Source: Bradyrhizobium sp. 195 (GTDB taxonomy: Bacteria; Pseudomonadota; Alphaproteobacteria; Rhizobiales; Xanthobacteraceae). Taken from it: a DNA stretch of 64,000 bases. Shown here in pieces: positions 13,497-57,249 of this stretch (position 1 is its first letter; every line of letters starts with the position of its first letter). The notes beneath the pieces were generated by a model. The model was given only the letters and a program-made list of their open reading frames with translations. It searched no databases and had not been told where the DNA came from. The stretch is taken from contig NZ_CP082161.1 of assembly GCF_023101665.1 (NCBI RefSeq), positions 6,944,001 through 7,008,000 on the forward strand. Reading direction: 5' to 3'. The position numbers and the translations under genes were made by a program.

Positions 13497-13534
13497 GCGT
13501 GGATGGAGCTTGCCCTATTCAGGCTGCTCAGCTG

Positions 13535-17218: not shown

Positions 17219-18688
17219 ATGACCTTGCCGATGAGCTGGACTGAATGGGCGCAGCACGACGGCGTCGCGCTGGCGGGGCGCGTCCGCAAGGGCGAGCTGA
17301 CGGCGAAGGAGCTGGCGCGCCAGGCTGCCGCGGGGATCGCCAAGGTCAATCCGGCGCTGTCGGGCGTAGTCGAGCTGTTCGAGGACGTGATCGCCGATCC
17401 CGCCAAGGACGGCGCCAATCTCGCAGGTCCGTTCGCCGGCCTGCCGTTCCTGATGAAGGACCTCGGGCCGACCATGAAGGGCCGGCTGCAGGAAATGGGC
17501 TCGCTGTTGATGCGCGGCAATCGCGCCGCGGCCGACACGTTCCTCACCGGAAAATTCCGCCAGGCTGGGCTCAACCTGATCGGACGCACCACCACGCCGG
17601 AATTCGGCGTGTGCTCTTCGGCCGACAATCCCGCCGTCTACGTCACCCGCAATCCCTGGAATACTGACTACACCACCTGCGGCTCGTCCGCGGGCAGCGC
17701 CGCGATGGTCGCAGCCGGCGTGGTGCCGATCGCGCATGCAACCGACGGCGGCGGCTCGATCCGCATTCCCGCCGGCGTCAACGGCAATATCGGGCTGAAG
17801 GTTTCGCGCGGCGTGTTTTCGCTCGCACCGCACATGTCCGACCTCACCGGCCTCGTCTCGATCCAGGGCTGCCAGTCGCGCTCGGTGCGCGACACCGCCG
17901 CCTTCGTCGATCATGCGAGGGGACCTGCGCCTGGCGAGTTCATGCCGTTCTGGACCACGGCGCAGCCCTATTCCGAGATGATCAAGCGCGATCCCTCAAA
18001 GCTGCGCATCGCGCTGTCGCACACATGGGGCGACTACAAGGCTACGCCTGAGATCGCAGCCGAGTTGGAGAAGACCGGCCGCTTCCTCGAAGGCCTCGGC
18101 CATCACGTCGACTACGCGCTGCCCGAGCTCGATTTCCGAGCCGCCTTCGCCGCGCAGACCACCTGCTACATCTCGAACTTTGCGGTGGTGATCTCCAACA
18201 TGCTCGCCGCGCGCGGGCTGGACAAGCCGCCGGAAGACCTGATCGAGCCCATGAACATCCGGATCTGGGAAGCCGGCCGCCATACCACCTTTGCCGAGCG
18301 GGCGAAGATGCAGGGCGTATTCAACACGACATCGCGCGGCTTCGGCGCCTTCTTCGAGCAGTGGGACGTGATCCTGACGCCGATCACGGCGCTGCCGACG
18401 CCGAAGGTCGGTACCAGGGAATATCTCACCATCTCCGACAATCGCGATGTGCTGGACTGGTTCGGCAATCTCTGGCGCTTCTTCGCCTTCACGCCGCTCG
18501 CCAATCTCTGCGGCATGCCGGCGATCTCGATGCCGATGGCGAGCCAGGAGCACGGCCTGCCGCTCGGCATCCAGGCCATCGCCAAGCAGGCCAATGACGG
18601 CCTCCTGCTGCAGCTCGCCGCCCAGATCGAGCGCGCGCTCGACGGCAAGTGGAACGGCGGCAGGAAGCCGAAGGTGCATGTGGGCTGA
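17219..18688 (+). CDS. Amidase signature family enzyme
   Basis: A 489-residue amidase. The Ser-cisSer-Lys triad is visible: Lys in PFLMKDLGP (about residue 81), the cis-Ser in CGSSAGSAAMVAAG and the nucleophile in TDGGGSIRIPA (about residues 182-186). The Gly/Ser-rich signature is intact, so it should be active in hydrolysing an amide. Length fits GatA-like and aryl or aliphatic amidases, but the gatCAB context is missing, so a catabolic role is likelier. The ATG preceded by AAGGGGA was chosen over an upstream TTG. Confidence 0.92.
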   Translation: MTLPMSWTEWAQHDGVALAGRVRKGELTAKELARQAAAGIAKVNPALSGVVELFEDVIADPAKDGANLAGPFAGLPFLMKDLGPTMKGRLQEMGSLLMRGNRAAADTFLTGKFRQAGLNLIGRTTTPEFGVCSSADNPAVYVTRNPWNTDYTTCGSSAGSAAMVAAGVVPIAHATDGGGSIRIPAGVNGNIGLKVSRGVFSLAPHMSDLTGLVSIQGCQSRSVRDTAAFVDHARGPAPGEFMPFWTTAQPYSEMIKRDPSKLRIALSHTWGDYKATPEIAAELEKTGRFLEGLGHHVDYALPELDFRAAFAAQTTCYISNFAVVISNMLAARGLDKPPEDLIEPMNIRIWEAGRHTTFAERAKMQGVFNTTSRGFGAFFEQWDVILTPITALPTPKVGTREYLTISDNRDVLDWFGNLWRFFAFTPLANLCGMPAISMPMASQEHGLPLGIQAIAKQANDGLLLQLAAQIERALDGKWNGGRKPKVHVG

Positions 18689-45380: not shown

Positions 45381-45419
45381 ACTTGCGGCCAGGACTTGCG
45401 GTCAGGACTTGCGGCCAGG
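45381..45419. repeat. Three tandem 13-bp repeats
   Basis: ACTTGCGGCCAGG occurs three times in a row directly after the CBS gene stop, the middle copy with one change (GGTCAGG). They are the end of the native sequence before the integrated element. The following 220 bases up to the att repeat show no gene. Confidence 0.9.
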
Positions 45420-45641
45420 ACTCCTCTCGCGATCGCCGCTCGAACAGGCGTTGAGGAGAGCCCGAGGCATGCGCTCCTCATCCAATTGTCGCGCGGCGCG
45501 GAAGCGCCGGCGCGAAGTGGCCTATTTTGCGCCGGAGTAGATGCAAGGCGGGCTCACTCAATCACTTCATCGGCGGCGACGCTGCGGCGCGCAACCTGTG
45601 AACGAGCGACGTCGCGCGGCCGGACGGGGAATATCGCGGAT

Positions 45642-45658
45642 TGGCGCTCCCTAGGGGA
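45642..45658. other. attL-type 17-bp direct repeat
   Basis: The sequence is identical to the 3' end of the tRNA-Glu gene at 57175-57191, in the same orientation. It is the duplicated attachment core made by site-specific integration, left behind at the end away from the tRNA. Confidence 0.92.
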
Positions 45659-45694
45659 CTTTAGGCACCTAGGAAAAACAAACACTTACGGGAT

Positions 45695-45703
45695 GGTGGG
45701 ACA
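45695..45703. promoter_or_regulatory. Candidate integrase arm-type site near the left att core
   Basis: GGTGGGACA followed by an A-run occurs 36 bases inside the left core. The same 9-mer followed by AAAAA is near the right core. In the excised circle both flank the core as direct repeats. No other role is visible, as the helicase start is 90 bases further. Confidence 0.45.
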
Positions 45704-45792
45704 GAAAACGGTTCTACGGAATCGTTATCGTTTATAGCGCGACTGTCTCACCAGCGGAGCCCATCGGGCAGCCGCGAGAGGTGAAATTCGAT

Positions 45793-47325
45793 ATGACCGA
45801 GATTGTGCACGGTGGCCTCCCCGAGGCCGCCGCAAAACCCGTTGACGGCATCCCTCCGCACGAGCGGATTGCCGACTGGATCGAATCCGACGATGGCGGT
45901 TCCGGCCCTACCCCCGAGGGGGAGCGAGGCGATAGGAGCGGCGTAGATGCGCCAGACGCGTCCCCCCGTTCCTGGGGCTTCGATGTTGAGGAAATCAACC
46001 GTAGCTACGCTGTAGCCATTTGGGGCGGCAAAACGGTGGTGGTGAACGAACAGGCTGCCGGCCCGGTCAATGACCGCGTGCGGGTGATGTCGTTCGAGTC
46101 TCAAAACGCCTGGTTCGCGAACCGGTACACCGAAATCAAGGGGTCGGACGGAAAGGTTCGGCCCGTCACCTGGGCGCAGGCGTGGCAGAGGCACCCCGAC
46201 CGGCGGCAGTATGAGGGGATTGAATTCTTCCCCAATCCCGACGGCGCCAAGGGCACCCCCAACTATCTCAATTTCTGGCGGGGTTTTGACGTAAAGCCCT
46301 CACCGGCCGGAAAGTACGACGTCTTTCGCGACCACCTGCTCAATAATGTGTGCGACGGCGATCCCGAGCTATTCAAGTACGTTTTCGCATGGATGGCGCA
46401 CATCGTTCAGCGGCCGCGAGAGCGGCCCGGCACGGCCCTTGTTCTGATCGGGCGGCGCGGCACGGGTAAAAGCAAGGTGGGCGAAGTGTTGGGATCGTTA
46501 TTCCCGGCGCACTACTATCAAGTAGACGATGCTCGTTACATCACCGGCCAGTTTAACGAGCATATGGCTAGTTGCTTGCTGTTGCAGGCTGAGGAAGCGA
46601 TCTGGGCGGGTGACAAAGCGGCTGAAGGCCGACTTAAGGGTTTGATCACCAGCGAAATGCAGATGATCGAATCAAAAGGCGTCAACGCGATCCGCATGCG
46701 CAACTTCGTTCGGGTAATCATGACATCGAACGAGAGTTGGGTCGTACCCGCCGGCATGGACGAGCGCCGATTTGTTGTTCTCGACGTGAACCCACGGTGC
46801 GCTCAGAATCACAGCTACTTTGCCGAGATGGATGAGGAACTGAACAATGGCGGGCGTGAGCGGCTGCTTCACGACTTGCAGACGTTCGACCTATCTCAGG
46901 TAAATCTAAGGCATCTCCCGCAGACGCCGGCCCTTCTTGAGCAGAAGATTCGGTCGCTCGATACGATCGACGACTGGTGGTTCAATCGCCTTCACGAGGG
47001 CGGCGATTGGCCAGAGCGGACTCGGTGCGACGATCTTTACACCGAGTATTTCAAGGCTCCCGGCGTAGGCCGTAAACGCGGTCCCGCCGAATTTGGCAAG
47101 CGGCTCTTGAAGCTTGCGTCCATCCGCAAGGTACGGCCCGCAATGGAAGCCGATGAGCCAGGTACAATGAAACGAGTATGGTGTTATGAGTTGCCGTCTC
47201 TTGACGAGTGCCGTGCGGCATTTGATGATCTGGTCGGTCAGCCAGTACCTTGGCCGGCGCTGCCCCCGGGAGAGGGCGAGCGAGCGCAGCGGTCATCCGG
47301 GCCGGATGAAGCCATTCCGGCCTAG
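45793..47325 (+). CDS. Phage/plasmid SF3 primase-helicase (D5-like, DUF5906)
   Basis: About 510 residues. The helicase core has Walker A LVLIGRRGTGKSKVGEVLGS, a Walker B region CLLLQAEEAIW, the sensor segment VIMTSNESWVVPAG and the arginine finger region MDERRFVVLD, all as in D5/DUF5906 superfamily-3 helicases of phages and satellites. The N-terminal third has no recognised primase active site. It should open the replication origin and load replication proteins. GAGAGGT is ten bases before the ATG. It is the first gene of the element and is followed by 9-bp iteron-like repeats that would be its target. Confidence 0.88.
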   Translation: MTEIVHGGLPEAAAKPVDGIPPHERIADWIESDDGGSGPTPEGERGDRSGVDAPDASPRSWGFDVEEINRSYAVAIWGGKTVVVNEQAAGPVNDRVRVMSFESQNAWFANRYTEIKGSDGKVRPVTWAQAWQRHPDRRQYEGIEFFPNPDGAKGTPNYLNFWRGFDVKPSPAGKYDVFRDHLLNNVCDGDPELFKYVFAWMAHIVQRPRERPGTALVLIGRRGTGKSKVGEVLGSLFPAHYYQVDDARYITGQFNEHMASCLLLQAEEAIWAGDKAAEGRLKGLITSEMQMIESKGVNAIRMRNFVRVIMTSNESWVVPAGMDERRFVVLDVNPRCAQNHSYFAEMDEELNNGGRERLLHDLQTFDLSQVNLRHLPQTPALLEQKIRSLDTIDDWWFNRLHEGGDWPERTRCDDLYTEYFKAPGVGRKRGPAEFGKRLLKLASIRKVRPAMEADEPGTMKRVWCYELPSLDECRAAFDDLVGQPVPWPALPPGEGERAQRSSGPDEAIPA

Positions 47326-47331
47326 CAGCGC

Positions 47332-47587
47332 GTCCAAGGTGTCCAAGGGCGTCTAAGCGCCTCAAATCTCAATCTAACCTACAATATACGGCGTGCGTCC
47401 AAGGTGTCCAGGGTGTCCAGGTCGCGCGCGCGTAGGCGAAGCAAGCCGGTCTCAATGTTGAGGCCGGCTTTTGTTTTACCTCAACCCCCTTGGAGTCCTT
47501 GGACTCCTTGGACACCCTAGACCAACCCTAGAATTACAGCCGTTTCTCGCAGTCCAAGCACATCACCAGTGCTTGGACTGCTTGGAC
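47332..47587. repeat. Clusters of 9-bp iteron-like repeats, candidate replication origin
   Basis: Four clusters of the 9-bp unit GTCCAAGGT are seen. Two units plus a variant lie at 47332, 47341 and 47351; three lie at 47397, 47406 and 47415; three in reverse orientation lie at 47488, 47497 and 47506. The last cluster is a perfect 10-bp inverted repeat (GTCCAAGCAC, spacer of 7, GTGCTTGGAC) followed by one more unit. Spacing is exactly nine bases within clusters. It follows the SF3 helicase gene, the place where satellite origins sit. Confidence 0.75.
47443..47476 (+). terminator. Rho-independent terminator inside the iteron region
   Basis: AAGCCGGtCTCAA and its complement TTGAGgCCGGCTT form a long stem with one wobble pair, followed by TTGTTTT. 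It would end the helicase transcript after the first iteron clusters. Confidence 0.7.
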
Positions 47588-47866
47588 ATGTCTACAGAGC
47601 ATCAAATGAGCAAGTTGACCAAAGACCAAATCGAATTCTCCAAGTCGATGACCATCAAGCAGCGGCACGTTCTGCGAGCACTCGCGATCTATCCGAACGG
47701 ATGGTTCATGAGCGCGAGCGAGCGGGCCGACCCGGAATTGTATGAGCTGTTCAAGCATCGGCTCGTCCAGTGCCATCACGTGTGCCCAGGTGGTGGCCTC
47801 CCGTCGTGGGGAGTTACCGAGTTTGGAAAACGGATTGCGGAACGGCAGGCGACGGGAGCCGTCTAG
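47588..47866 (+). CDS. Small hypothetical protein, 92 residues
   Basis: The frame runs from MSTEHQMSKLTKDQIEFSKS to a C terminus GVTEFGKRIAERQATGAV. The size, the basic C terminus and position in the element suggest a DNA-binding or winged-helix regulator of about 90 residues, but no motif is clear. The ATG is preceded by CTTGGAC repeats rather than a ribosome site; an ATG six codons in is an alternative. Confidence 0.55.
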   Translation: MSTEHQMSKLTKDQIEFSKSMTIKQRHVLRALAIYPNGWFMSASERADPELYELFKHRLVQCHHVCPGGGLPSWGVTEFGKRIAERQATGAV

Positions 47867-48158
47867 GGGGATGGGTCCCTCCCGGCACCCCGCCCCCTAC
47901 GGCCCAAGCGCGCCCCGAAATATCCCCAGACGCAGTTTCTGAATCGTGTCCGAACAAACCGAACACGTCGAACATGAGGCGGATTCCTTGGAAACCAAGA
48001 TTCCAGCCACTTCTTCGAGGTCGCGCTCACCGATGGGGAGTGCTTGGACTCACCCAAAGAGCGACCAAACAGCGAGACCAAACCGGCTTGGCGACGGCAA
48101 TGACTATCAAACAAGTCGTGTTTTGTCGGCGCGGTCCATCTCTCTGGAGGGATGATTT

Positions 48159-48338
48159 ATGAGCGCGAACAAGTGCGGTGTGACCCAGAAGTCGACCTTA
48201 TTGAGCACCGCCCGGTTGAGCGCCATGAGCCATTCTGGCACTTGGCTTGCCTGGCGTATCGCACGTCTTTGCAAAAGCATTGCTGAACGTCAGGCGAGGG
48301 AGGGCCTATCAGGGATGGGGCGGGGCCCTTTCCCATGA
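48159..48338 (+). CDS. Small ORF, 59 residues, element gene of unknown function
   Basis: GGAGGG lies six bases before an ATG and the frame runs 59 codons (MSANKCGVTQKSTLLSTARL at the start). The C-terminal half has a helix IARLCKSIAERQAREGLSG like the tail of the preceding 92-residue protein. An overlapping ATG (48152) in another frame would give a 44-residue alternative. Support is the ribosome site only. Confidence 0.35.
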   Translation: MSANKCGVTQKSTLLSTARLSAMSHSGTWLAWRIARLCKSIAERQAREGLSGMGRGPFP

Positions 48339-48552
48339 TCTCACCCCAGCTGGCCCATGAGCGCCCCCGAATCTGCCAGTCAGTGCAGCGTTTTTCTGAG
48401 TTGACAGATTGACAGCTTCTCAACTTAGACTAGTCCGCCGACATGAAGCAAAGGACGACTTTCTGCTCAGTTGCGGCTCGATGAGCACAGATATAACAGA
48501 GACTAGCCGTTCTCGCTTGACGGATAGGCTGCACGAAAAGGGCTGGGGAACA

Positions 48553-51432
48553 ATGCCAATCAGTTGGAATGAGGTACGGACGAGAGCTTCGAGTTTTGCC
48601 AATGAATGGAAGAACGCCCATTACGAGAAGGGCGAAGCACAAACTTTTTACAACGAATTCTTTCAGATCTTCGGCGTCGATCGAAAGAGAGTCGCGGTCT
48701 TCGAGAAGCAGGTACGAAAGCTCGACAATTCAAGCGGATTTATCGATCTCTTTTGGCCGGGGCAGCTGGTTGTAGAACAAAAGAGCGCGGGGAAGGACCT
48801 CAAAAAGGCAAATCAGCAAGCGCTTGATTATTGTTCCTCTCTCAAACCGAACGAGCATCCACGCTATATTCTGGTTAGCGACTTTCAACATTTTGAATTT
48901 TACGACTTGCAGGATCGAAAAGAATCTTCGTTCGCACTTTCCGAGCTAAGCCAAAACGTTGAGCTTTTCGGCTTCATCCTGGGTCGCGAAATCCGCGTAT
49001 ATTCAGACCAGCCGGCCGTAAATATTGAGGCTGCCGAGCTAATGGGAGCCGTGCACGACGCATTGGAGGAGTCGGGCTACGTTGGTCACGACCTGGAGCG
49101 TTTTCTAGTTCGCCTTCTGTTTTGCCTTTTTGCTGACAGCACCGGCATTTTCGAACCGCGAGGAATATTTCAGACCTGGCTACACGAGCGCACGGCAGAG
49201 GATGGCTCAACCTTAGGGGCGCAACTGATAGAGCTGTTCCAGGTTCTCGACACACCAATCGAGAAACGCCCCAAGACCCTGGACGATGACCTCGCCGATT
49301 TTCCCTATGTGAATGGCGAACTCTTTACGGAGGCGCTGAGAATCCCGTCGTTCAACTCAGCGATACGCCAGGAACTTATCAACGCGTCAGAATTCAAATG
49401 GGAGAATGTGTCCCCGGCGATTTTTGGTTCGCTCTTTCAGTCTGTAATGAAAAAGGAGGAGCGGCGCCAACTCGGCGCGCACTATACCACCGAAAAGAAC
49501 ATCATGAAGGTCTTGTCGTCCCTCTTCTTGGACGATCTGCATAGAGAGTTTGACGGGCTGAAGGCTCGCCGAGACACGCGTCGTACCGAGGCGCTGAAGC
49601 AATTTCACACCCGATTGAGCAAGATAACCGTTTTCGATCCCGCATGCGGCTGCGGAAATTTTCTCATCATCGCGTATCGAGAATTGCGACAGTTAGAAAC
49701 TGAAACGTTGATCGAAATCAGAAGGGAGACGGCCGGCGGTGGTCAGCTGTTTGACCCGGGCACCCTATCGACCGTCGATGTCGACCAGTTTTACGGTATC
49801 GAAATCGATGAGTTTCCTGTTCGCATCGCAGAAACTGCGATGTGGATGATGGATCACATTATGAACAATCGCCTCAGTGTGGCCTTCGGTCAGCCCTACC
49901 TGCGCATCCCGCTAAAGAAGGCAGCGCATATAACTAAGGCTAATGCTCTAGACTTGGATTGGGCTGAAGTCCTAGCTCCGTCGAAATGCTCTTATATCGT
50001 CGGGAATCCTCCATTCCGCGGACATCAATGGCGGACTCCGGAGCAACAGGCAGATATGGCACGCGTCTGGGGCAATGCCGGTCAGCTCAATCGGCTCGAT
50101 TACGTAACGTGCTGGTTTCGAAAGGCAGTCGACTATTCTGCACCGAATAAACACATCCTAATTGGATTTGTTTCGACCAATTCCATCACTCAAGGTGAGC
50201 AATCCGGTATTTTGTGGCCCCGCCTTTTCGGCAGTGGGGTAGCCATCTATTTCGCACACCGGACATTTCAATGGAATAGTGAGGCTCGTGGCGCCGCAGC
50301 GGTGCACTGTGTCGTGATCGGCTTGACGCGAGATTCATCCAAACAGCGCCAAATCTTCGATTACGCGCATCTGCGAGGAGACCCCCACGTTGCCAATGTG
50401 AAGTCAATAAACGGATATCTGATCGATGGCCCGCAATACGGAGTGCCAGCTCGAACGTCACCACCTCCGGGATATTTGCGAATGCATAAGGGCAGCCAGC
50501 CCACGGATGGCGCACGTCTAAAAAAACCCGGCGGCGGGTACATCACTACGAGCAATTTGATTCTGGATGACGACGATAAAAAGGCCTTCCTGAAATCTGC
50601 TCCAGCAGCGAAATCTTGGCTACGGCCTTTTGTCGGAGGTGACGAGTTGATCTCCGGAAAATGGCGGTGGTGTCTTTGGCTGAAAGATGCGAAGCCATCA
50701 GAAATTAAAGCGTGCAAGCCGTTGGCGGAGCGGCTAGAGCGCGTCCGCTTGGGACGGCTCCAAAGTCCGACGAAGAGTGTTAGGGACTACGCAAAGTATC
50801 CAACACTGTTCACACAAGACCGACAGCCGAGCGTTCCTTATCTCGCCATACCCGAGGTCTCCTCCGAAACCCGGGAATACATACCAATGGCAATGCTCAA
50901 GCCCAATGTCATCGCGTCAAACAAGCTGCAGATCATTCCCGGCGCACCGCTCTATTATCTCGGGATACTTACTTCAGCGATGCATATGGCCTGGATGAGA
51001 ACAGTGGCTGGTCGCTTGAAGAGCGATTACAGCTACGCGCCCGCCGTCTACAATTCATTTCCTTGGCCGGAATTGACGGACACAGACAAGCAAAGAATCG
51101 AAACTCTAACGAAAGCAATTATCTCTGCTCGCGAGAGGTTTTCGGATAGCTCACTTGACGATCTTTATGGCGCCGACAGCATGCCTCCTGCACTGCGGCG
51201 GGCGCATGAAGCTCTGGATGGAGCAGTCGATAAGCTATACCGAAAGTCACCATTTGCGTACGAACGAGAGCGCGTTGAATACTTGTTCCAGCTTTACGAA
51301 AGGACACTCTTGCCGCTAGGCGCCGCGAAAGAGAAAAAGCAAACATCGGAGCAGAAAGGTCCTGGGCCGAAGAAATCAGCTAGGAAGAACAAGTCCCGGA
51401 AGGAAAAGGCGCAAGCCACTGGCGTTGCCTGA
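48553..51432 (+). CDS. MmeI-type (Type IIL) single-polypeptide restriction-modification enzyme
   Basis: A 959-residue protein. Its N terminus (MPISWNEVRTRASSFANEW) and the nuclease motif FIDLFWPGQLVVEQK give Asp65, Glu75 and Lys77, the D-x9-ExK arrangement of MmeI. A helical connector leads to an N6-adenine methyltransferase core with motif X QLGAHYTTEKN, motif I VFDPACGCGNFLI and motif IV IVGNPPFRGH. The C-terminal third should hold the target recognition domain. It is predicted to methylate one strand and cut about 20 bases away on its own. The ATG follows GGGGA; an open upstream extension is not conserved. The AT-richer composition marks foreign origin. Confidence 0.9.
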   Translation: MPISWNEVRTRASSFANEWKNAHYEKGEAQTFYNEFFQIFGVDRKRVAVFEKQVRKLDNSSGFIDLFWPGQLVVEQKSAGKDLKKANQQALDYCSSLKPNEHPRYILVSDFQHFEFYDLQDRKESSFALSELSQNVELFGFILGREIRVYSDQPAVNIEAAELMGAVHDALEESGYVGHDLERFLVRLLFCLFADSTGIFEPRGIFQTWLHERTAEDGSTLGAQLIELFQVLDTPIEKRPKTLDDDLADFPYVNGELFTEALRIPSFNSAIRQELINASEFKWENVSPAIFGSLFQSVMKKEERRQLGAHYTTEKNIMKVLSSLFLDDLHREFDGLKARRDTRRTEALKQFHTRLSKITVFDPACGCGNFLIIAYRELRQLETETLIEIRRETAGGGQLFDPGTLSTVDVDQFYGIEIDEFPVRIAETAMWMMDHIMNNRLSVAFGQPYLRIPLKKAAHITKANALDLDWAEVLAPSKCSYIVGNPPFRGHQWRTPEQQADMARVWGNAGQLNRLDYVTCWFRKAVDYSAPNKHILIGFVSTNSITQGEQSGILWPRLFGSGVAIYFAHRTFQWNSEARGAAAVHCVVIGLTRDSSKQRQIFDYAHLRGDPHVANVKSINGYLIDGPQYGVPARTSPPPGYLRMHKGSQPTDGARLKKPGGGYITTSNLILDDDDKKAFLKSAPAAKSWLRPFVGGDELISGKWRWCLWLKDAKPSEIKACKPLAERLERVRLGRLQSPTKSVRDYAKYPTLFTQDRQPSVPYLAIPEVSSETREYIPMAMLKPNVIASNKLQIIPGAPLYYLGILTSAMHMAWMRTVAGRLKSDYSYAPAVYNSFPWPELTDTDKQRIETLTKAIISARERFSDSSLDDLYGADSMPPALRRAHEALDGAVDKLYRKSPFAYERERVEYLFQLYERTLLPLGAAKEKKQTSEQKGPGPKKSARKNKSRKEKAQATGVA

Positions 51433-51459
51433 ATCGAGTGCCCGTGGCCGCAGGATAAA

Positions 51460-51870
51460 GCCCGCCCGCTCCCGCGCGGCGGGGGTTCGCTATCTAGGAC
51501 AATCCGCAATCATACCTGCGGTCCCCCCGCACCCGGAAAAAGCGTCGAAACGCTGTTATTTAAGCGGTTTGGCGCAATCTCGTGTCCGGGTGCTTTGACG
51601 CGGAACGTAACTCTTGACATAACCCCGGACGCACCAAAAGGTGAAAGAGAAAGGCCCGCCCGCACCCGCTCGGCGGGCTTCGCACTTCTGGGACCGCGCA
51701 TCTTACCCTTTCGGCACCCGGGAGATCATCCGCGAAAAAACGTCGAAATCCGCTGCGATTTACGGAGTTTGCAGCGGACCCATGTCCGGGTGATTTGATT
51801 TCATGGGGAAGTATTGACATAACTCCGGACGCACTAAGAGGTCGAGACAACGGGGGCCCGCGCACTAGCG
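51460..51870. repeat. Degenerate tandem repeat of about 200 bp, two copies plus a fragment
   Basis: Matching landmarks recur 194-202 bases apart. GCCCGCC(C)GC is found at 51460, 51654 and 51856; CGTCGAAA at 51543 and 51741; TGTCCGGG at 51583 and 51783; TTGACATAAC at 51614 and 51814; CCGGACGCAC at 51625 and 51825. In each unit GTCCGGG and CCGGAC make an inverted pair around the TTGACATAAC. No protein frame is conserved. It lies between the R-M gene and the regulator gene. Confidence 0.8.
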
Positions 51871-51903
51871 CGGAAACCTTGATCAATCCTTCGAATCGCT
51901 CCG

Positions 51904-51933
51904 CGCAACACCGTTGCGTCGGGGCTTTTTTTT
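51904..51933 (+). terminator. Terminator-like hairpin before the regulator gene
   Basis: CGCAAC and GTTGCG form a stem with a 3-base loop, followed by TCGGGGC and a run of eight or more T. It lies just after the tandem repeats. Confidence 0.6.
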
Positions 51934-51980
51934 GGCCGCGCGCGCGGATCAATCACACATGAGAGATGGAGAAAGTAAAC

Positions 51981-52451
51981 ATGCTGAAGGACTATTCACC
52001 GAACGCGGCTGCTCACGCGGCGCGCTGCAAACCCGACACATTGCGCGACTGGCGTCGCCTTGGCTTTTTCAACGGTGTCGGCGAAAGGAAAGGCAAGGGC
52101 CATCGATACACATTGTCAGATGTCGCTCGCGTCGCAGTTGCTGCGTTCATCGCGCGAAACGGTGCGAGTCTTCGAGCGGCTTTCGAGATCGTTGGACAAC
52201 GAGGCAAATTGATCGACGCCATCGTTGCCCACGAACGGACTTCACCCGGCTCGGCCGATCAATTTTTGACATTCACCATCGATCTTGATGCGACCTTTCC
52301 GGCGGCGATCACCGGCGCGCCGATCGCAAACATCGAGTTCACAATCGCACCGATTGGCGTGTTGCAGGTGAACGTATCAAAGCTTATCCGATCTTCACTC
52401 GAACGGCTCGATGCTTTCGACAAGTGGGACGCTGACGCGTCGGCATCCTAG
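51981..52451 (+). CDS. MerR-like helix-turn-helix regulator of the element
   Basis: About 156 residues. The N-terminal part (MLKDYSPNAAAHAARCKPDT, then LRDWRRLGFFNGVG and GHRYTLSDVARVAVAAFIA) is a winged helix of the MerR/phage-regulator type. The rest is a beta-rich domain (IANIEFTIAPIGVLQVNVSK) with no known fold. GGAG is about ten bases before the ATG; an earlier ATG five codons up is possible. It lies directly after the 200-bp tandem repeats, which could hold its operators, and may govern the lysogeny-like state. Confidence 0.72.
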   Translation: MLKDYSPNAAAHAARCKPDTLRDWRRLGFFNGVGERKGKGHRYTLSDVARVAVAAFIARNGASLRAAFEIVGQRGKLIDAIVAHERTSPGSADQFLTFTIDLDATFPAAITGAPIANIEFTIAPIGVLQVNVSKLIRSSLERLDAFDKWDADASAS

Positions 52452-52520
52452 TCGCGGCTGCGTGGGTCGCCGCCTACGTCAGATGCCCCCTTTCTACTCG
52501 CCGCACGATTTCGAAAGCCG

Positions 52521-52670
52521 ATGCAACAAGGGCGGGCGAACCGACGACGATCGAATAACCGATCTGCCGGCCTTCCCTACGAATTTTTCGACAGCGCCCA
52601 TGCAGGATATGCCGCGCTACGCGGCTTGCTGGCCACGGTCGACCTTTCACTCCCTCGGCCACTCCACTAG
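52521..52670 (+). CDS. Possible small ORF, 49 residues
   Basis: The frame encodes MQQGRANRRRSNNRSAGLPY, then EFFDSAHAGYAALRGLLATV, ending LPRPLH. It has no good ribosome site and no known family, and other frames cross it. It is listed because it fills the gap before the capsid gene and uses the frame right after the regulator's stop. Confidence 0.25.
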   Translation: MQQGRANRRRSNNRSAGLPYEFFDSAHAGYAALRGLLATVDLSLPRPLH

Positions 52671-52693
52671 GCCGCACAAGCTAGAGGAATATC

Positions 52694-54712
52694 ATGACCG
52701 ACTTAACGGGCCGGCGCTCGCCGGCACGAACGGACTTGCACGTCCGTGACATTCAAAAGGATCCCCCGGCATTACCGATGCAGACGCGAGAGCTTCCGGT
52801 CGGTTCGGTCGACACTCAAAAACGCACCGTTAAAGTGGTCTTCACAACCGGCGCGGCCGTCAAGCGCCGTCGCTGGGCCGGATGGGACACGGCTGTTCCC
52901 TTTGAGGAAATTCTTGAGGTCTCGCGCTCGGCGATCAACCTCGATCGGCTCAATGCCGGCGCGCCGGCCCTCGACAGCCATTCGGCCTATTCCACGTCGG
53001 CGCAAGTTGGCGTCGTCGAGCGGGCTTGGATCGAGGGTGGCGAAGGTCGCGCCTTGATCCGCTTTCCCCGGGAAGGCTTGGACGCAAACGCTGATCGCAT
53101 GTTCGCACTGGTGTCAGACGGCATCATCCGCAACGTGTCCGTCGGCTATGCAATCGACGAGGTGCGCGTCGTCGAACCGCAGAAGAAAGGCGAGGTCGAG
53201 AAACGCATCATTACGCGTTGGACTCCTTTTGAGGTGTCCTTCGTCACCATCCCCGCTGACGCCGGAGCACAAGTGCGCGGCGCGGAGGAGACCTTCCCGG
53301 TGGTTATCAGCCGGGCGACTCAACACACAGTGCGCAACATGAAAGGAAGCACTTCAATGGACATTCACGAAGCAAACCAGAATGACGACGACGCTGTTGT
53401 GGCGTCGCGCTCTGATGAGAACAATCATCAGGGCGATCGCCGCGCCCTCGAGTTCTATGAGATGGCGGCACAGCGGGGCCTTCCGGCAGAATTCGCCCGC
53501 AAGCACATCGGGGCGGGCTCAACAATGAAGGCATTCCGGCTTGCCATTCTCGATGAGATGGCGGCAGCGGGGTCTCGTGCAAACATTTCGAGCCGCAGCG
53601 GCGACGGAGCTAGCGCGACTCTCGACAACCCCGACTTCCTTGCGCGCTCGATCGAGGATGCCATCGTCGCTCGTATGAGCGGCAAGCGTCCCGAGGGCGC
53701 GGCGATGGAATTGATGGGCCGCACCGTGCTCGACATGGGGGCGATGCTCGTGCAGGCTCGTGGCGAGCGGCCCATCTGGAACAATCGGGATCGGCTGTTG
53801 ACGCAGGTGATGCAGCGCTCGGGCGGGATGCAATCGACGAGTGATCTCCCAATCTTGCTGACCTCGGCGGGCAATCGTGTTCTCAATGACGCGTATCGGG
53901 TGGCGCAGACGCCCCTTATCAACATCGCCAAGCGTCGCGAAGCGGTTGATTTCCGTGCGCTCACGACAATCAAGCTGAGCGAGGCGCCGCGTCTCTCGGA
54001 GGTGAAAGAAGGCGGCGAGGTGACTCATGGCGCCCGCTCGGAAGCAAAAGAGAGTTTCAAGCTGAAAACCTACGCCAAAATCTTCGCGCTCAGCCGACAA
54101 GCGATCATCAACGACGACCTGGGCGCGTTCGCCGACTCCAATGCGGCCTTTGGCCGTGCGGCAGCTCAGACGGAGGCAGATGTCCTTGTTAGCTTACTGA
54201 CTGCCAATTCTGGCAACGGCGTCAATCTCGATGACGGCAGCCCACTTTACGGCACCGGTGCATCTCGCGGAAACAAGGCGGCGGCTGGCGGAGCAATTTC
54301 CGCCTCGACCTTGGATGCGGCGCGGCAGGCGCTGCGCGGGATGAAGGACATCGACGGGAAAACCGCGATCAATGTCACTCCGAAGCACCTTGTGGTCGGA
54401 CCTGCGAAGGAAACCGAGGCCGAGCAGTTTCTTGCGACAACGCTCTACCCGAACCAGCCGAGCGGCGTGAACCCGTTTGCCGGGAAGCTCACGCTGAGCG
54501 TCGATCCCCGGCTTTCCGGAAACGCGTGGCGGCTGTTCGCCGATCCAACCGAGGTGGCAACGATCCTGGTCGCGTATCTGAACGGTGCCGACGGCCCGAT
54601 CGTTGAGACTCGCCTCGGCTGGGATGTACTCGGCGTTGAAGTGCGCGCGGTGCTCGACTTCGGTTGTGGCGTGAATGATTTCCGCGGGACGTATCTGAAC
54701 CCCGGCAACTAA
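52694..54712 (+). CDS. Prohead protease-major capsid protein fusion (HK97-type)
   Basis: A 672-residue protein. Residues about 25-205 are an S78/U35-type prohead protease: strand-rich start VGSVDTQKRTVKVVFTTGA, the His in ALDSHSAYS and the Ser in NVSVGYAIDE. Residues about 290-670 are a capsid domain of HK97/Mu gpT-like type (LPILLTSAGNRVLNDAYRVA, then AIINDDLGAFADSNAAFGRA and LTLSVDPRLSGNAWRLFADP). Between them lies an acidic linker typical of a scaffold-like delta domain. The protein would self-assemble and cleave itself. AGAGGA lies five bases before the ATG. No portal or terminase genes adjoin. Confidence 0.9.
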   Translation: MTDLTGRRSPARTDLHVRDIQKDPPALPMQTRELPVGSVDTQKRTVKVVFTTGAAVKRRRWAGWDTAVPFEEILEVSRSAINLDRLNAGAPALDSHSAYSTSAQVGVVERAWIEGGEGRALIRFPREGLDANADRMFALVSDGIIRNVSVGYAIDEVRVVEPQKKGEVEKRIITRWTPFEVSFVTIPADAGAQVRGAEETFPVVISRATQHTVRNMKGSTSMDIHEANQNDDDAVVASRSDENNHQGDRRALEFYEMAAQRGLPAEFARKHIGAGSTMKAFRLAILDEMAAAGSRANISSRSGDGASATLDNPDFLARSIEDAIVARMSGKRPEGAAMELMGRTVLDMGAMLVQARGERPIWNNRDRLLTQVMQRSGGMQSTSDLPILLTSAGNRVLNDAYRVAQTPLINIAKRREAVDFRALTTIKLSEAPRLSEVKEGGEVTHGARSEAKESFKLKTYAKIFALSRQAIINDDLGAFADSNAAFGRAAAQTEADVLVSLLTANSGNGVNLDDGSPLYGTGASRGNKAAAGGAISASTLDAARQALRGMKDIDGKTAINVTPKHLVVGPAKETEAEQFLATTLYPNQPSGVNPFAGKLTLSVDPRLSGNAWRLFADPTEVATILVAYLNGADGPIVETRLGWDVLGVEVRAVLDFGCGVNDFRGTYLNPGN

Positions 54713-54721
54713 AAAACTTCT

Positions 54722-54746
54722 GGGCCGCACCCTATGGGGGCGGCCC
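54722..54746 (+). terminator. Hairpin after the capsid gene
   Basis: GGGCCGC and GCGGCCC form a 7-bp perfect stem extended by an ACCC/GGGG partial pairing; only CTTAG follows, without a T-run. It probably marks the end of the capsid transcript. Confidence 0.5.
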
Positions 54747-54884
54747 TTAGATATTGCGCGTGGGCAATTTCCCATAGGGCGAGCGGTCACGTCCTCGCCG
54801 AAAGCGATCCTCCCGGCTCACGCGCACAGAGTCTAGCGGGCCAAGGATCGTTGTGGCCGCACTTCATTTTTTTCAGGCTGTATC

Positions 54885-55139
54885 ATGCTCGACGAGAAAT
54901 CAGCGCGCCGTGGCAGCACATTGCCGCCATCGTTGCCGCCGCGAGGCTTATCGCGCGTTCAAGCCGCAGAATGGGTGGGGGTTAGCCCCTCAACGTTCGA
55001 CAAAATGGTCGCCGACCGACAAATGCCTCGCCCTAAAAGGATCGGGGGACGCGTGATTTGGGACCTGAAACAACTTGACTGCGCTTTCACGGCACTCGAC
55101 GATGACGGGGAAAACGAATGGGACAGGGACCTTCGCTGA
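54885..55139 (+). CDS. AlpA/excisionase-like helix-turn-helix protein
   Basis: An 84-residue protein with GLSRVQAAEWVGVSPSTFDK as the helix-turn-helix and MPRPKRIGGRVIWDLKQLDC as the wing, the pattern of AlpA/Xis-type regulators. It lies directly upstream of and overlaps the integrase gene by 22 bases, as recombination directionality factors often do. It should bend att DNA for excision. Confidence 0.85.
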   Translation: MLDEKSARRGSTLPPSLPPRGLSRVQAAEWVGVSPSTFDKMVADRQMPRPKRIGGRVIWDLKQLDCAFTALDDDGENEWDRDLR

Positions 55140-56179
55140 GCATGCGCGTGGCGCTTAAGTACATCTGCGAGGATGTTGACCGACATGGCAACGTCCGCTG
55201 CTACGTTCGCGCCCCCGGCAAGCGCAAGGTGCGCATCCGCGCACTGCCCGGCACCCCCGAGTTCATGGAAGAATATCAGGCTGCGATTGCGACGGCTGCT
55301 GAGGCGCCGCTGCGGCAGGCCGCCGAGGCGAAGCGCGGATCGTTCCGCTATCTCTGTATTCGCTATTATTCGAGCGCGACTTACAAAGCGCTGGATATCA
55401 GTACCCGCAACTGGCAGCGCCGCGCGCTCGACGAGATTGCGCAAGACCACGGGTCTAAGCAGGTCGCAACAATGCAGGCGCGTCACGTGCGCAGGCTTCG
55501 CGACGCAAAGGCAGAGACGCCGGCGGCAGCGAACCAGCGCCTGAAAGCGCTGCGCGCATTGTTTTCGTGGGCGACTGAGGCCGAAGAAACAACGGTCAAT
55601 CCGACACTCGGCGTTAAGAAACTCAAGTATCGGTCGGATGGACATCACACTTGGACCAATGACGAGATTCAGAAGTATTACGAGCGGCACCCGCTCGGGT
55701 CGCAGGCGCGGCTTGCGCTCGACTTGTTGCGGTTTACGACCGGCCGCCGCGAGGATGCGCCTCGCCTCGGGCGGCAACACACGCGGGATGGTCGTGTGCG
55801 CTTCCGCCAAGCCAAGAATGAGCATCGCAATCCGGTGGACATCGACATCCCGTTGCATCCCGCGCTCGCCGAGAGCATCGCGGCGGCGAAGGCTGTGAGC
55901 AACATGACGTTCCTAATCACCGAGTTTGGCAAACCGTTCACGGCCAACGGGTTCGGGAATAAATTCAAGGATTGGTGCCGCCAAGCTGGTCTCCCGCATT
56001 GTTCGGCGCACGGTATCCGAAAGGCGACGTTGACGGCGCTTGCCGAGGCGGGGGCAACGCCGCACGAGATCATGGCGGTTGGCGGACATCGTTCCCTTGA
56101 GGAGGTCGAGCGCTACACCAAGGCTGTGAGTCGAAAGAAAACAGCTGACACCGCCATGCAGAAGCTTCAACGCGGCTAG
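55118..56179 (+). CDS. int: Tyrosine recombinase (phage-type integrase)
   Basis: A 353-residue integrase. The N-terminal arm-binding and core-binding parts precede the catalytic domain, which shows the Arg in FTTGRREDAPRLG, the HxxR box in CSAHGIRKATLTALAEAG, the late His in AVGGHRSLEEV and the nucleophile Tyr in ERYTKAV. It catalyses integration at the tRNA-Glu att core about one kilobase downstream. The ATG with GGGGA six bases upstream was chosen; an ATG eight codons later is also possible. It overlaps the AlpA-like gene. Confidence 0.93.
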   Translation: MGQGPSLSMRVALKYICEDVDRHGNVRCYVRAPGKRKVRIRALPGTPEFMEEYQAAIATAAEAPLRQAAEAKRGSFRYLCIRYYSSATYKALDISTRNWQRRALDEIAQDHGSKQVATMQARHVRRLRDAKAETPAAANQRLKALRALFSWATEAEETTVNPTLGVKKLKYRSDGHHTWTNDEIQKYYERHPLGSQARLALDLLRFTTGRREDAPRLGRQHTRDGRVRFRQAKNEHRNPVDIDIPLHPALAESIAAAKAVSNMTFLITEFGKPFTANGFGNKFKDWCRQAGLPHCSAHGIRKATLTALAEAGATPHEIMAVGGHRSLEEVERYTKAVSRKKTADTAMQKLQRG

Positions 56180-56183
56180 ATCA

Positions 56184-57071
56184 TCATAATCTTCGCGTTT
56201 CGGTAGCGAGCAAAACTGCGCTTTCGCCTCCGCCGATTCCCGATGGCGCTGCCACGATGTCAGTTGCCTTTGAAGCGGCGCTTATCAGATTCAAAGCCGC
56301 CGCTGAAGCCAAGCCGGGGTCAACGTCGGCTACCTTCGATTTCCCGACGAGATCAAAATAGTCCTGGGTGAGAAACTGCTGTCCTACGCCCGCAATAACA
56401 TGTTGCTGATAATAGGGGACTTCGCCGAACGGCAATATCTGGCGATCACTATGAAGGTGAAAGCTATCTCCCCGGATCGTTGTTGCGGCCGTTACGGGCA
56501 AAGGTTGCAAGCCGAAGTTGCCAACAGGGTCTAGCTTGACCGCGAGGCTTAGAAGTTTGCTGGTTTGAGTGTCGGGCTCGAACTCTGCAAATATGATCTG
56601 CGCAATCTCAGTGCCGAAAAAGGGGTTGAGATTTCCAGCTTTAATGTACGGCACAATAGATTCGTAGATGTGGTCGGTTAGCGCCGCCCAATCCAACTCC
56701 GCAAACGGAGCGCTGGTGCTGTCCAGGAATTCGAGTGCCGATCGGCCGAAATCGATCGGCGCTCGATTTTTCGCGAGGTAGTCGCACAGATCGGTTTTGG
56801 GGATGTTTGAAGTGTTTTGGAGGGTGATATTGCCCGTCACGACAACAGCCGTACGCGGCCTGCGGGGTAGCAGGATTTTGTTTATCCCGTCACAGAAGAT
56901 GCCGCCGGGCGATTGGCGCATGTCCGCAGCGATCACCAAGCCGCCGCGAGTAGGAACGAAGATAGCCAGCGTTCCGCCGGCTCCGGAAAATTGGACGTAG
57001 CCCTGCTCCACGCAACCCATCGCTACCACCGAAATCAACGCTAAGGATGCATTGACAACAAGATGCCCCAT
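56184..57071 (-). CDS. Proteasome-fold (Ntn-hydrolase-like) hypothetical protein
   Basis: A 295-residue protein with a hydrophobic N-terminal helix (VNASLALISVVAMG-Cys), possibly a lipoprotein or signal anchor. The segment GGTLAIFVPTRGGLVIAADM, with GINKILL following, resembles beta-strands of proteasome-like Ntn hydrolases (GTT...AADxR...DKI). No free Thr/Ser/Cys nucleophile at an N terminus is proven. It is transcribed opposite to the integrase and lies between it and the right att site. An ATG was preferred over the TTG at 57158, whose extension covers a likely integrase arm site. Confidence 0.6.
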   Translation of the reverse strand: MGHLVVNASLALISVVAMGCVEQGYVQFSGAGGTLAIFVPTRGGLVIAADMRQSPGGIFCDGINKILLPRRPRTAVVVTGNITLQNTSNIPKTDLCDYLAKNRAPIDFGRSALEFLDSTSAPFAELDWAALTDHIYESIVPYIKAGNLNPFFGTEIAQIIFAEFEPDTQTSKLLSLAVKLDPVGNFGLQPLPVTAATTIRGDSFHLHSDRQILPFGEVPYYQQHVIAGVGQQFLTQDYFDLVGKSKVADVDPGLASAAALNLISAASKATDIVAAPSGIGGGESAVLLATETRRL

Positions 57072-57103
57072 CAAGTGGCTTGGTCCAAACCAGAAACTAT
57101 CGC

Positions 57104-57130
57104 TGTCCCACCGAAATGGGAGGTGGGACA
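57104..57130. promoter_or_regulatory. Inverted repeat, candidate integrase arm site at the right end
   Basis: TGTCCCACC and GGTGGGACA form a perfect 9-bp inverted repeat with a 9-base spacer, 44 bases from the right att core. The 9-mer GGTGGGACA recurs near the left core at 45695. Confidence 0.5.
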
Positions 57131-57174
57131 AAAATCCCAATAAATGGAGCAAAATCAACGTCTAAAAATTCAGA

Positions 57175-57191
57175 TGGCGCTCCCTAGGGGA
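57175..57191. other. attR-type 17-bp direct repeat (3' end of tRNA-Glu)
   Basis: The same 17 bases as at 45642-45658, forming the 3' acceptor-stem and T-arm end of the tRNA-Glu gene. Integration leaves the tRNA gene intact. Confidence 0.92.
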
Positions 57192-57249
57192 ATCGAACCC
57201 CTGTTTCAGCCTTGAGAGGGCCGCGTCCTAACCGCTAGACGAAGGGAGC
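57175..57249 (-). tRNA. tRNA-Glu (anticodon CUC)
   Basis: The transcribed strand has a 7-bp acceptor stem GCTCCCT/AGGGAGC with discriminator G and encoded CCA. It shows the D-loop (GTCTAGCGGTTAGGAC), an anticodon stem CGGCC/GGCTG with loop CTCTCAA giving CUC, and T arm CAGGGGTTCGATTCCCCTA. The 3' end is the integration site of the adjacent element. Confidence 0.97.

Follow-up and report, generated by a model that had tools for sequence, protein, structure and literature searches.

A probable phage satellite of Bradyrhizobium with its own capsid gene and a cos-like site in common with phages

The 64,000-nucleotide stretch of Bradyrhizobium sp. 195 analyzed here (contig NZ_CP082161.1, positions 6,944,001 to 7,008,000; hereafter the window) contains an 11,550-bp element at positions 45642-57191, which carries a gene for a protease-capsid fusion protein and has the general features of a phage satellite: it is integrated, with its own integrase and attachment (att) sites, and its virion gene set is incomplete. 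Satellite P4 is about 11.6 kb long, has an SF3-type replication protein, integrates at a tRNA gene and carries a helper-type cos, all of which it shares with the window element. P4 re-sizes the heads of P2 with Sid and to our knowledge encodes no shell protein, unlike the window element.

Capsid-bearing satellites without terminase are already in print, as described in the portions of the sources cited here (PMC10448857; TG93, PMC13230959), so the kind itself is known. The portions of PMC10448857 used here report 224 putative satellites from E. coli and its near relatives. These have genes for capsid, decoration, tape-measure and baseplate proteins and have RepA_N, and they are stated to be without terminase, prohead protease, AlpA, head-tail adaptors and Pri-Rep. 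As described there, these satellites resemble the present family in being mostly integrated at tRNA genes, in having a major capsid protein and in the absence of terminase, and a subset uses a serine recombinase, as does one of our elements (L068). They encode a tape-measure protein; none was matched in the window element, and 12 of 19 family members have a tape-measure-like gene. The window element, by comparison with the same description, has a protease fused to its capsid protein, AlpA and an SF3 helicase, with no RepA_N family among the matches of its main open reading frames (ORFs) and no decoration or baseplate family matched in it.

With capsid-forming phage-inducible islands (cfPICIs), as portrayed in the cited parts of PMC10448857, PMC13230959 and PMC11389934, the window element has in common its own capsid, a prohead protease, AlpA, an integrase and a presumed dependence on helper tails, but it is without terminase, portal or head-tail adaptor. 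The capsids of cfPICIs form three clades according to the part of PMC11389934 cited. TG93 is an 11.1-kb Vibrio episome with capsid E, a protease, a small terminase and a MerR-like gene, and the source that gives this outline also describes a cf-PISP with fuller head genes (PMC13230959). TG93, a PISP, is like the window element in its size, its capsid and maturation protease, its MerR-like regulator and its lack of tail genes. It is, however, episomal, with no integrase detected, a PF03864 capsid and a small terminase, whereas the window element is integrated, with a PF25209 capsid and no small-terminase match. Judged from these partial descriptions, the window element would work like these systems but fails defining features of each. 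No account of such elements in Bradyrhizobium or Alphaproteobacteria was found among the matches listed from the open-licence PMC literature, which does not imply absence from print.

From its sequence and that of its relatives, the satellite nature of the element is strongly supported, and we infer that it has its own small head and is packaged by a helper. The reading that we favor, with a probability of roughly 0.72, is that of a satellite which makes its own shell and borrows the terminase, portal and tail of a helper through a common cos.

The element and its family

An exact 17-bp direct repeat, TGGCGCTCCCTAGGGGA, marks the two ends of the element, at 45642 and 57175; the right copy is the tRNA-Glu 3' end, one copy having been so placed in the original prediction. 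A comparison of the window with the tRNA 3' region gave no further same-strand match of at least 15 bp besides the two repeat copies. The original prediction had also suggested a search of relatives for the gene order and for empty tRNA-Glu sites, and both were found. Around tRNA-Glu, 3 of 14 other loci compared (L140, L142, L143) were empty, with the 17-mer as the point where left flank and tRNA meet; the neighboring 190 bp or so of the L143 flank could not be aligned, yet its final bases are alike. G+C falls to 0.52-0.63 in the element against about 0.65 over most of the window. Just outside the element, at 45381-45422, stand three 16-nt copies of ACTTGCGG[CT]CAGGACT with 13-bp spacing. The features that define the element are the following:

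45642..45658, no strand: attL, the left 17-bp repeat copy (exact repeat; junction absent from empty sites L140, L142 and L143)
45781..47325, plus strand: SF3/DUF5906 helicase, the helicase half of a phage primase-helicase (PF19263 5.9e-23; phrog_1156 4.3e-41)
52694..54712, plus strand: prohead protease/major capsid protein fusion (NF045541 652 bits; PF25209; PF04586; phrog_4523 E 1e-175)
55118..56179, plus strand: tyrosine integrase (PF00589 3.3e-15; phrog_1)
57175..57191, no strand: attR, the right 17-bp repeat copy and tRNA-Glu 3' end (repeat and tRNA search)
57175..57249, minus strand: tRNA-Glu(CTC), the attachment gene (ARAGORN)

The capsid gene had been described as unaccompanied by terminase, portal or tail genes, and this proved correct within the families searched: none was matched in the eight main ORFs (Pfam, PHROGs) or in ten further small ORFs (PHROGs), the latter a subset of the ORFs of at least 60 amino acids (aa). 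Head-tail adaptor, small terminase, tape-measure, decoration and baseplate families likewise had no match in the element. The whole genome around it gave no match to PF03354, to the phrog_15 terminase or to the phrog_21 portal.

Capsid matches were obtained in 27 of 265 genus genomes at an expectation (E) value of 0.001, and the surroundings were examined in 19 of these, the remaining 8 being short or weak capsid matches. Six Bradyrhizobium elements (window, L002, L066, L067, L068, L069) have a helicase, an 86-aa gene, variable cargo, a helix-turn-helix (HTH) gene and the capsid in the same order; five of the six carry AlpA and a tyrosine integrase, and L068 a serine recombinase. At the level of the bacterial family, 28 of 391 genomes matched the capsid at E 1e-70, and 12 of these 28 supplied 13 loci for study, besides the two Bradyrhizobium ones. 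Nine of these loci, L178-L186, come from eight genomes of five other genera; each has the capsid but neither portal nor large terminase. In the remaining four (L187-L190), whose capsids are near 40% or lower, large terminase, portal and tail genes are all present. A 12-member alignment of satellite capsids, used to scan viral contigs, found 54 of them, several short: large terminase and portal occur together in 32, portal alone in 12, terminase alone in 1 and neither in 9. Four of these nine (L191, L192, L193, L198) have the satellite gene set; the sequence of L193 covers 21 of 31 kb.

This gives 19 satellite loci, namely the window element, five more in Bradyrhizobium genomes, nine in other genera and four viral contigs. 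No phmmer hit to portal or large terminase was obtained in any of the 19, and profile searches with phrog_21 and phrog_15 in 13 of the 14 satellite-bearing genomes (G437 left out) gave no hit inside a satellite. The suggestion of a new family of small satellites in Bradyrhizobium-like bacteria holds up once corrected: members are found in five further genera of the bacterial family as well, and there are the precedents in print given above.

The 19 capsids appear to have a single origin. In a 63-row tree of the shell domain they lie on one side of one branch, with support of 100/98 and in 100% of 200 bootstrap trees. The rows are a chosen subset of roughly 125 capsid-bearing loci (an earlier capsid tree had 39); the subset excludes L072, L107-L109 and further rows that were long or partial, and L232 falls in no group. 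The two domains of the fusion differ in their relationships. The shell domain of the window protein is 61-87% identical to those of the other five Bradyrhizobium satellites and at most 41% to those of six phages. Its protease domain is 79% identical to that of phage L040 and 32-38% to those of the other five satellites; the L068 protease domain shares 94% identity with the L069 domain and 57% with that of phage L008. The shell domain looks satellite-specific and specialized, and the protease domain looks to have been exchanged with phages. Ratios of nonsynonymous to synonymous change (dN/dS) were 0.08-0.29 for the shell domain, 0.087-0.20 for the helicase and 0.05-0.08 for the integrase, values that are rough since synonymous sites are near saturation in many pairs; by this comparison all three are under purifying selection.

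The eleven elements with both ends defined measure 9.7-12.1 kb, with a mean of 11.35 kb (in bp: window 11,550; L002 11,843; L067 11,707; L068 11,375; L069 11,544; L180 10,931; L182 10,977; L183 12,063; L184 9,718; L185 11,555; L186 11,593). The att repeat of L068 is only 12 bp, with a second 12-bp match inside the tRNA. L066, studied up to an arbitrary right end at 13500, is not among the eleven because its attR is about 33 kb away (L111:15303). In that genome (G148), where the att copies are L066:2085 and L111:15303, a serine-recombinase-like gene precedes the tRNA; together with the distance of about 33 kb this suggests an accretion of two or more elements. Size keeps within the range given while sites (tRNA-Glu, -Phe, -Met, -Arg, -Thr or -Val), recombinases (two classes) and cargo vary. 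In Bradyrhizobium the cargo is an MmeI-type enzyme (window, L068; diverged in L002), a sulfatase (L067) or a tape-measure-like protein (L066 and L069, the latter also with a tail-fibre protein).

The original prediction that the capsid is the only structural gene stands for the window element but not throughout the family. Besides the tail-fibre protein of L069, there is a small terminase in 2 of 19 satellites (L183, L191), a gpW-like hit in L185, and a tape-measure-like gene in 12 of 19 (L066, L069, L179, L180, L182, L183, L185, L186, L191, L192, L193, L198). Judged by tape-measure similarity, L066, L069 and L182 are strong cases and L179, L180, L183, L185 and L186 weak ones (E 3e-28 to 8e-13, and 1e-11); a limit of 1e-3 applied to L191-L193 and L198. 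Profile support is weak (phrog_34270 8e-4 in L072, phrog_1272 2e-3 in L182, none for L066 and L069), and the name was given because of the place of the gene in prophage L072 and the mutual similarity of the proteins.

Other compact elements were seen alongside this family. A second Bradyrhizobium kind (L070:7353-19407, L071:899-12813, L074, L112, L114-L117) has a portal, a capsid fusion and a gpW-like gene and, where seen, an integrase at tRNA genes; repeats of 19 and 18 bp delimit two of them at about 12 kb, and L071 has a large terminase. These would be compact satellites of the cfPICI kind with capsids of another clade, and the cos profile described below did not match them (no hit at E 0.1 in the portal-bearing L070, L071, L074 and L116, nor at E 0.05 when they were searched along with the other loci). 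Many 8-14-kb IMG/VR contigs (L196, L200, L207-L210, L213, L214, L220, L221, L225, L231 and others) carry a large terminase, portal, capsid fusion and decoration-like gene, often with AlpA and integrase, and were matched by none of the tail references used; they are perhaps a radiation of compact capsid-forming satellites. Two small plasmid records, L109 (Klebsiella aerogenes pYD-K10_2, 10,541 bp) and L108 (Rhodovastum RHOAph, 10,690 bp), have a primase-like gene (DUF927 or DUF3987) and a protease/capsid fusion and are annotated without portal or large terminase in PLSDB gene tables, which may be incomplete; L109 also has an integrase, AlpA and DUF1441.

A cos-like site common to satellites and phages

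L040 is the phage contig with the capsid closest overall. L072 is a myophage-type prophage of genome G026 with tail sheath, baseplate hub, portal and large and small terminase (PHROGs) and a weak tape-measure match; its large terminase is 82% identical to that of L040, and its tape-measure-like protein matches those of L066 (E 8e-212) and L069 (E 4e-219). When the elements were compared with L040 and L072, one short non-coding stretch was found in common. In the window it is represented twice:

47853..47985, plus strand: cos-like site, with its core at 47873-47905 and three 9-bp units at 47948-47974 (aligned with 14 other sites)
48138..48443, plus strand: decayed second copy of the end of the 86-aa gene and of the cos-like site (nhmmer 48271-48443 and 48352-48428; repeat D7)

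The site is about 100 bp long. Its core reads GGGTCCYTCC, about 12 variable bases and CTACGGCMC, with one mismatch in L002 and L067; it is followed by AAGCGCGCCCC with few changes, by CAG and, in most copies, by tandem GGTTGACA-like units 8-9 bp apart. In the window the core is intact, and the units end in CGAACA instead of TTGACA in the same columns; in the second copy the TTGACA units are kept and the core is damaged. The altered units may mean that the helper has a different small terminase or that the site is weakened.

The L072 site ends about 80 bp, and the L040 site about 250 bp, before the small-terminase reading frame, which is where lambda-type phages have cos and its terminase-binding repeats. 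The strict core occurred at 12 places in 12 of 257 genus genomes, and all 12 keep the wider motif, L135 and L138 with other repeat units. A profile was built from 15 sites, including those of six satellites and of L040 and L072. It matched the window site at 3e-24, that site being itself in the training set, and gave no match at E 0.05 on 2.1 Mb of reversed sequence. Outside the training set it matched satellites L178, L179, L180, L182, L183 and L185 and the viral-contig satellites L191, L193 and L198, so that a cos-like site is found in 15 of 19 satellites, including all six Bradyrhizobium elements. Phage loci were also matched, at 6e-6 (L187), 3e-5 (L156), 3e-4 (L158) and, weakly, 0.009 (L039), and there was a weak match in the portal-bearing viral contig L214 (0.0095). 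The L187 site is at the 5' end of the large-terminase frame, that of L039 at the start of the small-terminase frame, that of L156 about 0.7 kb before the large-terminase match and that of L158 1.35 kb before the small terminase; overall, phage sites lie 0-1.4 kb upstream of terminase genes. The presence of one cos-like site in satellites and phages lends indirect support to helper dependence.

Second profile matches occur in the window, L002, L133 and L136. The paired copies lie at 47853-48443 in the window, at 4954-5078 and 8198-8296 in L002 and at 1784-1915 and 5074-5124 in L133; the L002 and L133 pairs sit either side of a large cargo ORF, as if cargo had been swapped at cos. Cos-like sites without a capsid match were also seen, in L135 (G060), L138 (G230), L134 (G059), L136 (G155), L132 (G047) and L137 (G173). 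A small terminase adjoins a 719-735-aa protein in L135 and L138, and L135 has a tape-measure-like protein as well; L134 and L136 have AlpA-like or defence-like neighbors by eye, those of L136 presumably Gabija-like from their look; and no phage gene was matched in L132 or L137. These sites perhaps belong to a wider satellite network of one phage type.

Other genes and repeats of the element

From left to right the element consists of the helicase, an iteron cluster, the 86-aa gene, the cos-like site with its decayed second copy, an MmeI-type gene, repeats, a MerR-type regulator, the protease-capsid fusion, an AlpA-like gene, the tyrosine integrase and a 324-aa gene. Family matches bear out the predicted layout, with integrase and AlpA-like genes at the right, SF3 helicase and repeats at the left and the fusion in the middle; the MmeI-type gene, the cos-like site and the 324-aa gene are additions to it. 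The remaining features are:

47333..47586, no strand: iteron cluster, nine TCCAAG[GC] copies on either strand
47606..47866, plus strand: conserved 86-aa protein (ORF listed from 47471; in 6 of 6 Bradyrhizobium elements by phmmer)
48409..51432, plus strand: MmeI-type (type IIL/IIG) restriction-modification cargo (five Pfam domains: MmeI_N, hel, Mtase, TRD, C)
51536..51798, no strand: repeats upstream of the regulator and capsid genes (repeat D4; also similar to L068)
51966..52451, plus strand: MerR-type regulator with a CvkR-like fold, 161 aa (PF13411; model pLDDT 88.6)
54885..55139, plus strand: AlpA-like HTH protein, excisionase/regulator (phrog_25900, phrog_66; no Pfam model above its cut-off)
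56184..57158, minus strand: 324-aa cargo protein (no Pfam, PHROG, PADLOC or NCBIfam match)

The helicase, which has no internal stop, covers positions 406-843 of 855 of the phrog_1156 profile and so corresponds to the helicase half alone of a primase-helicase, the point of comparison with the Pri-Rep replication initiator of cfPICIs. The iteron cluster beside it is a probable replication origin: a 7-mer is repeated here 8-12 times per 600 bp in 6 of 6 Bradyrhizobium elements, L002 and L066 using another unit, and in L067 and L069 a GC-rich 7-mer elsewhere equals it in frequency. The MmeI-type gene is also recognized by PADLOC as REase_MTase_IIG (1136 bits), and its true start may be further inside the ORF. 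The repeats at 51536-51798 are a possible regulatory region, of which 51536-51689 is like positions 18334-18477 of prophage L072 (67%, E 1.7e-8).

The regulator has 51 relatives besides itself (4 of the 52 rows with ncbi source), and its model has as best PDB match, among the matches listed, CvkR (7xn2, E 5e-5, TM 0.66). We rejected a small terminase as the best reading of it: the model fits MerR regulators, no terminase was in the best 50 of 311 matches, and phmmer gave no match to any of the phage small terminases. The integrase has relatives at 77-89% identity in six other Bradyrhizobium genomes. Integrases 77-85% identical were also seen in three genomes without a capsid match, L097 (G102), L098 (G256) and L099 (G183), two of the three beside tRNA-Glu and that of L099 split.

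Weighing the explanations

On the reading preferred here, entry or induction of a phage with a lambda-type (GpA) terminase would lead the element to excise and to replicate from its iterons. The fusion would form the element's own shell, the protease trimming it. Small and large terminase of the helper would act on the common cos, and the helper's portal, connectors and tail would complete the particle. The MmeI enzyme would protect the host, and hence the element, against other phages. The narrow size range, 9.7-12.1 kb, points by analogy with P4 to a small head of about T=3-4. Siphovirus-like B. elkanii particles with heads of 33-82 nm have been described, and 71% of the particles imaged in Bradyrhizobium cultures were apparently tailless, as given in the part of the source cited (PMC11599138); it is speculation that small satellite heads could be among them.

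We see in the window element a seemingly intact representative of a capsid-bearing satellite family that has one origin and neither portal nor large terminase; a specific packaging-type site ties it to one type of phage terminase. A fuller version of this account, to which we give a little less than an even chance, is that the window copy of this single-origin lineage is down to one head gene, that the satellite-specific shell is a small capsid which accepts the portal, terminase and tail of a lambda-terminase phage, that the protease domain has repeatedly been swapped with phages, and that the packaging site follows the helper, with a three-unit terminase-binding block that in the window has been re-specified.

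Several observations weigh against the preferred reading. At the thresholds used, a cos-like site was not found in 4 of 19 satellites (L181, a 4-kb contig, L184, L186 and L192), and the reversed core pattern, run as a control, occurred at 2 places against the 12 of the core itself. The window cos may work poorly with L072-type helpers, because its repeat units are altered from GGTTGACA and its second copy is decayed. The L040 large terminase was matched in 9 of 249 genus genomes at E 1e-50, where G179 reaches 57% and seven others stay at or below 40%. No match to it was seen in the genome of the window, which by this search and those with phrog_15 and phrog_21 holds no candidate helper. The candidate helpers fit only in part: their shells are 41% (L040) and 32% (L072) identical to that of the window, so that their portals serve different shells, and this account has no explanation of how the satellite shell would take a foreign portal. 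A helicase scan of viral contigs gave 11 pattern matches, none of them a relative. Given the lack of a terminase match in the window's genome and the 32-41% identity of the candidate shells, we infer that the helper is a visitor of the L040/L072 terminase type.

Alternatively, the capsid gene product could co-assemble with, shrink or poison helper heads, acting by size redirection or interference. Head-assembly disruption is suggested for the 11.1-kb capsid-plus-protease Vibrio element TG93 in the part of PMC13230959 cited, and the window protease domain, close as it is to that of L040, could act on helper heads. Mixed lattices are, however, less likely because the window shell domain is so distant from those of the six phages and lies in its own clade, and the fusion of protease and shell is kept in all six elements aligned. 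We consider this alternative unlikely.

It is a good deal less probable still that the element is a domesticated defence island in which selection acts on the MmeI system and the phage-like genes serve as passive vehicle or decoy. MmeI-family enzymes do occur in half of the Bradyrhizobium elements (window, L068 and L002), but cargo varies (restriction enzyme, tape-measure-like, tail-fibre, sulfatase) whereas helicase, HTH gene, capsid and recombinase are constant and the cos-like site is kept in 6 of 6. The weakest explanation, a deletion remnant of an ordinary prophage with a capsid gene kept by chance, draws on the fusion family being common in complete phages, with terminase and portal upstream of the fusion, and was rejected: a full prophage homologue and damage to helicase or integrase, named in the original prediction as what would refute it, were sought, and we found no full prophage with the satellite shell lineage, open frames for the helicase in 6 of 6, the capsid in 6 of 6 and the integrase in 4 of 4 elements compared (a TAA in the L002 integrase match being the gene's own end at 350 aa), dN/dS values far under 1, empty attachment sites, and across the 19 loci of a single capsid clade much the same minimal layout, with precise ends in 11. 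The same family, empty sites and open genes support and extend the initial view of the element as a phage satellite.

If the element is a satellite that makes its own shell and borrows the rest of the particle from a helper, one head gene and a packaging site would suffice for a satellite, and the question of how a shell made by a satellite takes up a foreign portal and determines its own size would become open to test. A concrete DNA site would point to candidate helpers, phages like L040, L072 and L158. The family would add an alphaproteobacterial lineage to the capsid-bearing satellites, and it would provide a route for restriction systems to move among soil bacteria of the Bradyrhizobium group.

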